The notes beneath the pieces are model-generated. The model did not search any database. It saw only the letters and a list, made by a program, of their open reading frames with translations, and was not told the origin of the DNA. Positions 31,494-34,595 of a stretch of 64,000 nucleotides of DNA are shown in pieces; the first letter of the stretch is position 1, and the number at the start of each line of letters is the position of its first letter. The stretch is from Pseudodesulfovibrio nedwellii (GTDB lineage: Bacteria > Desulfobacterota > Desulfovibrionia > Desulfovibrionales > Desulfovibrionaceae), in the NCBI RefSeq assembly GCF_027923765.1, contig NZ_AP026709.1:1359501-1423500 (forward strand). Direction: 5' to 3'. A program made the position numbers and the translations under genes.

Positions 31494-34400
31494 ATGGAAA
31501 GATTCACCGCAGACTTGCACATCCACTCCCGTTTTTCTCGCGCCACGAGCAAGAACTTGACCATCCGGAGCCTGGCAGCCTGGGGGCGCCTCAAAGGACT
31601 AACAGTCCTGGGTACCGGAGACTTCACCCACCCTGAATGGCTGGCCGAAATCGAAGACCAGCTTCAAGACAACGGGCATGGACTCTTCACCCTGAGAGAC
31701 CCCGGAGGGCTTGAATCGGAAATCCCGACTTTTGACGGAGAGATTCCCGGCCGTACTCGCTTCATGCTCCAGACGGAAATCAGCTCTATCTACAAACGTG
31801 GCGGCAAGGTGCGCAAAGTCCACAATCTGGTCTATATGCCAGACCTTGATTCCGTAAAACGATTCAACGAAAAGCTGGGACAAGTCGGCAATCTGGCTTC
31901 GGACGGACGCCCCATTCTCGGACTGGACAGCCGCAATCTCATTGACATGGTGCTGGAAACTCACCCCATGGCCTTCCTCGTTCCGGCCCACATATGGACA
32001 CCATGGTTCTCATTGTTCGGCTCCAAATCCGGCTTTAACTCCATCCGCGAATGCTTCGGTGACTATTCAGACGAAATCTTCGCCATGGAAACCGGCTTAT
32101 CTTCGGACCCGGAAATGAACTGGACATGGTCGGAACTCGACCGCATCAAACTCATCTCAAATTCAGACGCGCATTCCGGCGAAAAGCTGGGACGCGAGGC
32201 CAATCTGTTCCGTGGTGATATTTCCTATGAAGGCATTTACCGCGCGCTCAGAAGCGAAGGTTTGGGCCACAAATTTCTCGGCACCGTGGAATTCTTCCCT
32301 GAAGAAGGCAAATACCACATGGACGGCCACCGCAAATGTGGCGTGTCCATGGACCCGCACGAAACCATTGCCCGCGACGGCATTTGTCCGGTCTGCGGCA
32401 AACCGGTCACCGTGGGCGTCTATAATCGCATACTGGAACTGTCCGACCGCGAAGAACCGGTCCAGCCCGCAGGTGCGGCCAATTTCGTGTCCATGATTCC
32501 ACTCAAGGAAATTCTGTCTGAAGTGGTGGGGGTGGGACCGACTTCAAAAAAAGTCAACTTGCTGTACATGAAACTCCTCCATGAATTCGGCACTGAATTG
32601 GACATCCTTCAACGTGCTCCGGTAGAAGATCTAAATAAATTTTCCTGTCATCTGGGCGAAGGTCTATCCCGAATGCGTGAAGGACAGGTCATTCGCAAGG
32701 CCGGATTCGACGGTGAATACGGCAAAATTACCGTGTTCTCTGAAAAAGAACGCGCTGAAATCAAAAATGGCGGTACGCTCATCTCCATGGCCGCATCCGA
32801 CAAGCACCCTGACGTGGGCGAAATAGCCAAGCCGTGCAAAGTCATTCTCAGACGAAAAAATAAAATTGCTACTGTCACGTATAACAAGGAACAGCAGGCA
32901 GCCATCAACGCCGGCCCTGGTGCGGTTCTGGTCATGGCCGGCCCCGGTACCGGAAAGACGCAGACCCTTATGGGACGTATTGAACGACTCATTAACGAAG
33001 GGGGTAACCCCAAGCGCATACTCGCTCTGACTTTCACCCGCAGAGCAGCGCAGGAACTCCGCGATCGCATGAAAAGTCTTCGTGGCGACACAGCAGAAAT
33101 GCCTCAGGCAGGCACCCTGCATTCACTGTGCTTCGACTACTGGCGACATGCCTATTCTGACACACCAATAGTGGTTCCAGAGGCTGCGGCCAAAAAACTT
33201 TTTGCCGAGGTTAACCCCGAATTCGCGGGCAAAAATCTCAACCACTACTGGAACAAATACATCATGGCCCGTGAGCGGTTAGAAGAACTGCCCGCTGACC
33301 TTGCCGAGGCACACATCAACTACGGCAACCAGAAAAATCACTGGGATTTGGTGGACTACACCGATCTGCTGGAATTCATGCTGGAGCAATCAGACGCGCC
33401 CACTTTCCGTATGCCTTACACCGACGTACTGGTGGACGAAGTTCAAGACCTCACCCCCCTGCAACTTGCCGTAATCAAAGGCGTTGCCGAGAAGTCAGGC
33501 AAAGGCGTATTTTGTATCGGCGACCCCAAGCAATCCATCTACGGATTCCGAGGCGCAGCAGAAAACGTGGAAGAACGCCTCAAGGAAATGTGGCCAAAAA
33601 TTAAGCCTGTCACCCTGCTTGAAAACTACCGCTCAGGTCAGGCCATTCTTGATACGGCAGCATCCCTTTTCCCGGATGAACCAAAACTCCACGCCAATCA
33701 GGACATCAACGCTACCATTCATCTTTTTGAAGGACCAAACGGATTACGCGAAGCCACCTGGATCAGCGATAAAATCAAAGGACTGATTGGCACAACCAGT
33801 CATTCCATCACCGATCAGGAAGGCGGCGGAGATTTGGCCCCCGGCGACATCGCCGTATTAGTACGGTTCAAAGCCCTTATTCCCATTCTTGAAAAAGCCT
33901 TGAAACGGGCCGGTATCCCGGTATCCACGCCAGAACTGGAAGGCTTCTGGCAGGAACCGCGTGTAGCGAGTATACTCAAAGCCGCCGAACAATTCTTGGG
34001 CATGACACTTTCCGATTCCGAAGACGTCCTTGATGTACCTGACCACATCCTCGCCAAAGGACCAGTGGCTTTGGCCGCATTCCTGAATGAAACCCCACCG
34101 TTCGACCAGTTCTTCTGGGACAGCCGACAATTCAAAGAATTAAAAAAGGCCTTTGACGAACGTAATGGATGGCAGGGGCTGGTCAATTGGGTCAGCCTCC
34201 AGACCGAACTGGAGCTGGTACGCAAATCTGCGGAAAAGGTTCAAATAATGACCCTGCACGCGGCCAAGGGGCTGGAGTTCGATGCGGTGTTCATGCCTGC
34301 CTGCGAAGAAGGCATCCTGCCCTTTGCCGGAATGGACTTGCTGACAGCCACGGTGACACTCACCCCCGGACGCGGCCAACGCTTCGAAGAAGAACGCCGC

Positions 34401-34595
34401 CTAATGTTCGTGGGCATGACACGTGCCAAACGCAATCTTTATATCAGTCGATCCGACCAGCGGCAGTTATACGGCAAGACTCTGAATCTGCCATCTTCTC
34501 GATATTTACGGGAACTGCCTGAACATCTTCTGACAAAATCAACCTTGGCTGCCAAGATGGTAACCAAGGAAAAACAGCTCGGGTTGCTCGATTAG
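31494..34595 (+). CDS. Endonuclease Q-like PHP domain fused to UvrD/Rep helicase
   Basis: 1033 residues. Residues 1 to about 400 match endonuclease Q: PHP metal motifs ADLHIHSRFSRATSK (H9, H11), GTGDFTHPEW (40-49), HIWTPWFS near 165, SNSDAHSG near 222; then a zinc-finger part with HRKCGVSMDP and CPVCGKP near 278-300. EndoQ cuts DNA 5' of deaminated or abasic bases. Residues about 460-1033 are a superfamily 1 helicase: VMAGPGTGKTQT (about 480), VLVDEVQDL, GDPKQSIYGFRGA, LLENYRSGQAIL, MTLHAAKGLEF, RRLMFVGMTRAKR. One chain thus could nick damaged DNA and unwind from the nick. The start ATG at 31494 gives the exact EndoQ N-terminus. Confidence 0.92.
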   Translation: MERFTADLHIHSRFSRATSKNLTIRSLAAWGRLKGLTVLGTGDFTHPEWLAEIEDQLQDNGHGLFTLRDPGGLESEIPTFDGEIPGRTRFMLQTEISSIYKRGGKVRKVHNLVYMPDLDSVKRFNEKLGQVGNLASDGRPILGLDSRNLIDMVLETHPMAFLVPAHIWTPWFSLFGSKSGFNSIRECFGDYSDEIFAMETGLSSDPEMNWTWSELDRIKLISNSDAHSGEKLGREANLFRGDISYEGIYRALRSEGLGHKFLGTVEFFPEEGKYHMDGHRKCGVSMDPHETIARDGICPVCGKPVTVGVYNRILELSDREEPVQPAGAANFVSMIPLKEILSEVVGVGPTSKKVNLLYMKLLHEFGTELDILQRAPVEDLNKFSCHLGEGLSRMREGQVIRKAGFDGEYGKITVFSEKERAEIKNGGTLISMAASDKHPDVGEIAKPCKVILRRKNKIATVTYNKEQQAAINAGPGAVLVMAGPGTGKTQTLMGRIERLINEGGNPKRILALTFTRRAAQELRDRMKSLRGDTAEMPQAGTLHSLCFDYWRHAYSDTPIVVPEAAAKKLFAEVNPEFAGKNLNHYWNKYIMARERLEELPADLAEAHINYGNQKNHWDLVDYTDLLEFMLEQSDAPTFRMPYTDVLVDEVQDLTPLQLAVIKGVAEKSGKGVFCIGDPKQSIYGFRGAAENVEERLKEMWPKIKPVTLLENYRSGQAILDTAASLFPDEPKLHANQDINATIHLFEGPNGLREATWISDKIKGLIGTTSHSITDQEGGGDLAPGDIAVLVRFKALIPILEKALKRAGIPVSTPELEGFWQEPRVASILKAAEQFLGMTLSDSEDVLDVPDHILAKGPVALAAFLNETPPFDQFFWDSRQFKELKKAFDERNGWQGLVNWVSLQTELELVRKSAEKVQIMTLHAAKGLEFDAVFMPACEEGILPFAGMDLLTATVTLTPGRGQRFEEERRLMFVGMTRAKRNLYISRSDQRQLYGKTLNLPSSRYLRELPEHLLTKSTLAAKMVTKEKQLGLLD

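Follow-up and report, generated by a model that had tools for sequence, protein, structure and literature searches.

A predicted clamp-tethered fusion of an EndoQ-like nuclease and a UvrD-type helicase, nearly universal in sampled Desulfovibrionales, as a candidate repair enzyme for deaminated DNA

A single open reading frame (ORF) of Pseudodesulfovibrio nedwellii encodes an endonuclease Q (EndoQ)-like nuclease joined to a UvrD/Rep-type helicase. The frame lies in the 64,000-nucleotide stretch analyzed here (contig NZ_AP026709.1, positions 1,359,501 to 1,423,500; hereafter the window, with positions counted from its first letter). An earlier sequence-only reading of the window had described this joint chain and interpreted it as an EndoQ-like nuclease plus helicase; we confirm the observation, and residue conservation and a link to the DNA polymerase I gene polA support the interpretation. 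At a probability of roughly 60%, we propose that the protein is a chromosomal repair enzyme in which the EndoQ domain would nick the DNA, a clamp-tethered helicase would peel away the lesion-bearing strand, and PolA would refill. Databases name the fusion ‘UvrD-helicase domain-containing protein’, ‘AAA family ATPase’, or ‘TIGR00375 family’, and fused matches are also listed with Pfam PF27218.

Alignment indicates that the nuclease half is EndoQ-like at the catalytic and gate residues tested. The window protein aligns with EndoQ over the whole EndoQ length, through the PHP, zinc, and C-terminal domains, and shares the full-length fold and the catalytic and gate residues with the EndoQ proteins of Pyrococcus, Thermococcus, and Bacillus (5zb8, 7k30). 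Single mutants of E76, H84, and H139 in the Pyrococcus enzyme (PfuEndoQ) are reported as dead, and its H139, G169, and S171 as sterically excluding T and A (PMC8307549); residues E95, H110, H166, G201, and S203 of the window protein cover these positions. In the PfuEndoQ alignment, none of 103 sequences longer than 900 amino acids (aa) departs from the window protein at D7, H9, H11, D43, E95, H110, H166, G201, or S203, nor does any of the 57 others, some of them EndoQ fragments truncated by a contig end; at D225, Asp is kept by 101 of the 103. Since the window protein keeps both the residues that PfuEndoQ needs for activity and those that shut out T and A, the EndoQ call of the sequence-only reading holds. 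Assignment to another PHP family was rejected: the sequence-only reading had named a better fit to such a family (PolX or histidinol phosphatase) as grounds for refutation, and at E ≤ 0.001 no such family turns up among the hits from PDB or NCBIfam. The list of structural matches does not by itself exclude other folds. The fusion also resembles EndoQ (5zb8, 7k30) in a putative zinc ribbon and a C-terminal peptide of the clamp-binding type. Unlike EndoQ, the window protein carries an attached helicase, has its clamp peptide at the helicase end, reads HCCC instead of CCCC in the zinc ribbon, and falls below the TIGR00375 cut-off. Three of the four cysteines are kept, and the first is His279 in 102 of the 103 long sequences, still plausible as a zinc ligand. 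The TIGR00375 score is 183.3 bits, below the curated cut-off of 326.6 bits, which none of 247 genomes in a phylum-wide sample reaches, standalone EndoQ forms included; the fusion is therefore not filed as a TIGR00375 member, which leaves its predicted EndoQ-like working unaffected.

The helicase half contains motifs Q, I, Ia, II, III, IV, V, and VI, the complete superfamily 1 (SF1) set that had been claimed for it. Across 74 of 74 aligned fusions there is no change in the key residues of motifs Q, I, II, III, IV, V, and VI, and 29 sites rechecked in 15 of 20 loci from the order Desulfovibrionales all match the window protein, except for a T→S change in motif VI of one locus (L191). Both the nuclease and the helicase activities appear, from these alignments, to be under selection. 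The fusion shares all motifs and, in the structure model, the 1A/1B/2A/2B layout with the SF1A helicases UvrD, PcrA, and Rep; unlike them, it has an attached nuclease and a motif IV–V stretch of 208 residues, and its helicase forms a clade separate from Escherichia coli UvrD, Rep, and the genome's own UvrD. A GxG-like motif in the 2B region is found in only 10 of 74 fusions. Against the PcrA NCBIfam model the whole fusion chain scores 233 of 911 bits, under the equivalog cut-off, as does the genome's separate UvrD at 456 of 911 bits. Given that separate UvrD-like helicase, we rejected the fusion as a replacement of UvrD.

The chain ends in KEKQLGLLD, and its QLGLL can be set beside the β-clamp binding consensus QLxLF (PMC4549789). 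Of 101 complete fusions, 81 have a Q[LMI]x[LM][FLIM] motif among their 14 C-terminal residues (26 in the form QL[SD]LF), whereas shuffled tails average 0.44 such cases and reach 3 at most; internal 14-mers of the fusions carry it in 16 of 7511 cases. The 101 tails, which like genomes within one genus are not independent, omit 15 loci (contig-end cuts, broken or partial copies, and window duplicates) and sequences shorter than 900 aa. The motif is likewise present in the tails of 92 of 117 database proteins longer than 980 aa, in 21 of 48 sequences shorter than 480 aa, nearly all of them standalone EndoQs, and in all four helicases with a complete end that are encoded beside an unfused EndoQ (split pairs, below). 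In archaeal EndoQ, a C-terminal PCNA-interacting (PIP) box is reported to bind PCNA and stimulate cleavage, and the same source already pointed out β-clamp motifs in bacterial EndoQ homologues, one from Desulfovibrio (PMC4858679). The wide count of the motif and its position at the helicase end are added here. The fusion is thus a predicted β-clamp client.

The fusion pervades the Desulfovibrionales. Among 120 sampled genomes of the order, each at least 90% complete, 119 have a strong match (E <1e-100) and 116 carry the fusion in one open frame of 980–1406 aa, a count that rests on tabulated frame lengths and not on frame-by-frame confirmation of both halves; one of these (G291) has an in-frame stop. 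The search across the order that the sequence-only reading had proposed found the same joint chain. The EndoQ and helicase halves lie on different contigs in G281 and G341, and G275 has no convincing match. One pattern-limited scan of viral contigs did not reveal the fusion. Its single open frame in 116 of 120 genomes, with none seen in viral contigs, argues that it is a housekeeping gene.

Relatives extend well past the order. A protein search scored at least 7992 of them, and the 120 listed, each with 65% identity or more over the EndoQ region, all have a UvrD domain. The best 80 of 591 loci from named genomes comprise 59 fused copies, three contig-end cuts, and 18 without a helicase in the same ORF; in four of the 18 (L120, L149, L152, and L170) a helicase ORF adjoins or overlaps EndoQ. 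A fifth split pair (L025) came from the phylum scan, one of 30 standalone loci, with short flanks. Fused records are named as Chloroflexi, Gemmatimonadetes, Binatia, Elusimicrobia, Gastranaerophilales, Lachnospiraceae, and Latescibacterota, some of which may be wrong labels of metagenome-assembled genomes; in Nitrospirae records EndoQ is unfused. Desulfovibrio has been named among bacteria with EndoQ homologues (PMC4357722, PMC4858679). This refines the earlier description of EndoQ as best known from archaea: bacterial EndoQ is no rarity, and fused forms occur far outside Desulfovibrionales. In a quick tree of EndoQ domains (n = 139; rooted on Pfu, a long branch, and built without L098, L161, and L166), 89 of 90 fused copies fall into one group of 94 rows with a Shimodaira–Hasegawa-like approximate likelihood ratio test (SH-aLRT) support of 94, where the tool's threshold is 95. 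This group is nested inside standalone EndoQ; three split pairs (L025, L152, and L170) are its neighbours, and two (L149 and L120) are among its members. In the helicase tree, split-pair and fused helicases cluster together, apart from E. coli UvrD, Rep, and the genome's own UvrD (SH-aLRT 98). The simplest reading of these trees is that a gene pair became the fusion.

Standard teaching holds that cells almost universally counter cytosine deamination by base excision initiated by uracil-DNA glycosylase (UDG). In Desulfovibrionales, endonuclease V (EndoV) was found in none of the 120 genomes, and UDG family PF03167 matched in 31. Family-1 Ung proteins score too low with PF03167 or escape it altogether (L035, L036, L037, and L040 encode full Ung), so TIGR00628 was also run on the order; it matched in 17 genomes, 11 of them over its cut-off, and added six (G313, G317, G318, G326, G331, and G345), none over the cut-off. 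By either model UDG is matched in 37 genomes, leaving 83 of 120 with no match to PF03167 or TIGR00628, and none of the 12 genomes of the window's own genus has one. As a control, Xth was found in 117 of 120 genomes, and Nfo in 60 of 120, both in the window genome. For the phylum sample (n = 247) and 50 genomes outside the order, UDG was scored by PF03167 alone. The phylum sample contains UDG in 226 genomes, EndoV in 112, and EndoQ in 165, with 153 genomes carrying both EndoQ and UDG, 12 EndoQ only, 73 UDG only, and nine neither. Outside the order, where 50 of the 80 loci were taken, 47 of 50 EndoQ-bearing genomes have PF03167, and we therefore rejected the fusion as a universal UDG replacement; the three genomes lacking PF03167 hold one fused copy (L105) and two split pairs (L149 and L170).

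A second possible route to uracil incision runs through the exonuclease III (ExoIII) homologue Xth. The Xth of the window genome (L200:322-1128 (-); C1:2167927-2168688) shares 54% identity over 251 residues with the archaeal uridine endonuclease Mth212. It has the four uracil-recognition residues (K125, N153, S171, and R209; KNSR) of PMC6202378, which describes uridine endonuclease ability as so far seen only in Archaea and higher eukaryotes. Like the proposed action of the fusion, the Mth212-type ExoIII route of Methanothermobacter cuts directly 5′ of uracil with no glycosylase, in an organism that lacks UDG, although that enzyme has a fold unrelated to EndoQ and no helicase; the window genome has both kinds. 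We read Xth in 61 of the 117 genomes that have it (the window genome and 60 of the other 116). KNSR occurs in 32, KNTK in all 24 of one genus (g3) and in G337, and other changes in four. All 24 g3 genomes have thus lost two of the four uracil residues from Xth and all 24 keep the fusion, while 22 have no UDG match; the two exceptions are divergent PF03167 matches over the Pfam cut-off (G354, 58 bits, no NCBIfam match; G335, 40 bits). Because the g3 Xth lacks these residues, the fusion is left as the likely only recognized uracil nicker, among the families searched, in those 22 genomes. The complete, 2.2-Mb genome G337 is a natural counter-case, though a single one. Here the fusion is broken: a stop follows residue 309, ∼7 kb of other DNA separates residue 355 from residue 358, and no helicase half was found in the stretches read (L198 and L199). 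Its Xth reads KNTK, and its full Ung is the highest-scoring of the order sample (269 bits), a combination that counts in favour of the proposed repair role.

The genes downstream of the fusion (Table 1) include polA. Among 20 loci picked across the order from the 119 matched genomes, same-strand genes within 7 kb downstream include CbiR in 15, CobU in 15, DHH in 16, and PolA in 14. The order fusion, DHH, polA recurs in 14 of the 20, which bears out the earlier observation of a run with polA and makes the link more than a chance neighbourhood. In G251, cbiR and cobU are not there, and DHH and polA lie closer behind the fusion. The polA/DHH link was not seen in 100 loci outside the order, where flanks are short and recurrent neighbours are mostly overlapping antisense frames. 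The scan for terminator-like sites found 16, versus a mean of 11.2 in shuffles, and a promoter scan found fewer sites than shuffles did. The gene after polA (39984-40877 (+)) matches NF053583, ‘LAPAL motif-containing putative phage structural protein’ (82.9 bits, cut-off 60 bits), and is an unexpected neighbour. Upstream, 26615-31399 (-) holds a divergent MarR-type regulator, an RND efflux pump, and an adaptor, which accompany the fusion in 4 of 20 order loci. Lower-GC stretches lie at 24001-28000 (0.44) and 40001-44000 (0.45), versus ∼0.51 elsewhere.

Table 1. Domains of the fusion protein and features downstream of its gene (window positions)
Feature	Position	Strand	Details
EndoQ-like nuclease (PHP domain, zinc ribbon, C-terminal domain)	31494..32786	+	residues 1-431
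Linker, probably flexible	32787..32864	+	residues 432-457; predicted local distance difference test (pLDDT) <50 at residues 431-457
UvrD/PcrA-like SF1A helicase	32865..34550	+	residues 458-1019
QLGLL, predicted beta sliding clamp binding peptide	34575..34589	+	residues 1028-1032; motif search
cbiR, cobamide remodelling phosphodiesterase; conserved passenger between fusion and polA	34786..35634	+	NF041277 over cut-off
cobU-type gene; conserved passenger	35604..36140	+	PF02283 over cut-off
DHH/DHHA1 phosphoesterase, RecJ/NrnA-like	36145..37140	+	PF01368, PF02272 over cut-off
polA, DNA polymerase I, 5′ nuclease and polymerase domains	37161..39812	+	NF004397, TIGR00593 over cut-off; PF02739, PF01367, PF00476
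Terminator-like hairpin after polA	39836..39866	+	consensus scan only

From these parts, their conservation, and their distribution we infer an activity, a polarity, clamp binding, and a nick–unwind–refill pathway. The EndoQ domain would nick DNA 5′ of a deaminated base (uracil or hypoxanthine) or an abasic site. An EndoQ nick is described as having a 3′-OH upstream and a 5′-phosphate, leaving the downstream strand with the lesion at its 5′ end (PMC4357722, PMC8307549). The fused SF1A helicase, held at the site by the sliding clamp as its tail predicts, would load at the nick on the intact strand and move toward the lesion side. UvrD moves 3′ to 5′, and because such movement would start from the nick on the intact strand, the damaged strand would be peeled off as a 5′ flap. 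PolA would then extend the 3′-OH while its 5′ nuclease domain cuts the flap, and the DHH enzyme may degrade the released piece. An existing EndoQ model invokes either strand displacement with flap cleavage, or cuts by EndoQ and EndoV followed by helicase removal (PMC4357722); in contrast, the helicase here is built in, and EndoV was found in 0 of 120 order genomes. Gene content suggests that in most Desulfovibrionales the pathway would replace UDG and EndoV, with a Mth212-type Xth sharing the uracil job in many genera, though not in g3. We put forward only tentatively, at a little under even odds, the broader proposal that most Desulfovibrionales repair deaminated DNA without UDG or EndoV through this clamp-tethered nuclease-helicase, with the fusion as the sole uracil-repair initiator in g3. 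If so, these bacteria would have swapped base excision for direct strand incision.

Several observations weigh against this reading. The structure model has a predicted template modelling (pTM) score of 0.57, too low to settle how the two halves are arranged. Two order members (L065 and L066) have the metal-site Asp225 of the EndoQ domain changed to Asn. The strict clamp motif is present in only 19 of 29 Desulfovibrionales loci, rising to 26 of 29 when Q may be R, E, or K. Six of the 20 order loci lack a nearby polA, although a contig ends close to one of the six. A Mth212-type Xth is a second potential uracil nicker in many genera, that of the window included. The repair-gene searches covered the UDG models, EndoV, Xth, and Nfo, with the glycosylases MIG, AlkA, and AAG, and dUTPase, outside them. 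Ung scores above its cut-off in at least 11 order genomes, and all of these but G337, ten genomes, have it together with the fusion. Outside the window genome's own family, EndoQ presence in the phylum sample does not track UDG absence, and outside the order 37 of 38 fusion-bearing genomes have PF03167, so the fusion is not merely a UDG substitute.

Other roles can be set against that of a nick-first repair enzyme. The helicase might act first, as a clamp-tethered motor on single-stranded DNA or at a fork that feeds the EndoQ domain, making the fusion a replication-coupled scanner that cuts uracil in gaps or ahead of the polymerase. Its clamp-type tail would suit such a scanner, as would the reported stimulation of archaeal EndoQ by PCNA (PMC4858679) and its good cutting of uracil and hypoxanthine in single-stranded DNA (PMC11354406). 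However, a cut in the template at a gap or in front of a fork would sever the chromosome, and the polA link fits gap filling; we regard this order of events as unlikely. Less likely still is a main job in nucleotide incision repair of abasic sites or oxidized bases, with deaminated bases secondary. PfuEndoQ does cut abasic sites and some oxidized pyrimidines (PMC8307549), but dedicated apurinic/apyrimidinic endonucleases are already in place (Xth in 117 and Nfo in 60 of 120 genomes, with both in the window genome), what is missing is UDG and EndoV, and the gate residues that select uracil and hypoxanthine are invariant.

We give very little credence to anti-phage defence, in which the fusion would act like Gabija on foreign or uracil-containing DNA. 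Gabija GajA-GajB and RecB/AddA do combine a nuclease and a UvrD-like helicase in one machine, as the fusion does, but their nuclease folds and gene context differ, and these nuclease-helicases are not known to be lesion specific. The helicase half matches PADLOC GajB models at 216 bits, yet PcrA scores slightly above this (233 bits, whole chain); no gene for GajA, an OLD-type nuclease, is among the neighbours identified by Pfam and NCBIfam (MarR, RND pump, cbiR, cobU, DHH, and polA). A defensive role has been suggested for bacterial EndoQ (PMC8307549). The neighbouring efflux, cobamide, and polA genes, the near-universal presence in the order with conserved gene order, the lack of a viral relative in one scan, and the PADLOC comparison together led us to reject a defence island. 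Equally improbable is a PHP part that has lost its action on lesions and serves solely to bind DNA or control the helicase. Loss of activity does occur in other PHP domains. That of E. coli Pol III is reported to have lost it (PMC3666897), but the fusion aligns with full-length EndoQ, zinc and C-terminal domains included, and keeps the EndoQ ligands and base gate, the D225N of two proteins being the sole departure at that site.

Literature searches found no account of the helicase fusion, although the figures or supplements of PMC4357722 and PMC4858679 may show the long protein, and text searches found no account of missing UDG and EndoV in Desulfovibrionales. With a core nuclease-helicase in a large order in which EndoV is unfound and UDG mostly unfound, a direct-incision alternative becomes testable in culturable mesophiles. 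The one-chain enzyme could serve for studying the hand-over from incision to strand removal and the sliding clamp, and possibly as a laboratory tool that nicks and opens DNA at uracil. Since the fusion is nearly universal in the order, EndoV is found in none of 120 genomes, and UDG is unmatched in 83, the fusion may be the main guard of these bacteria against a common mutation.

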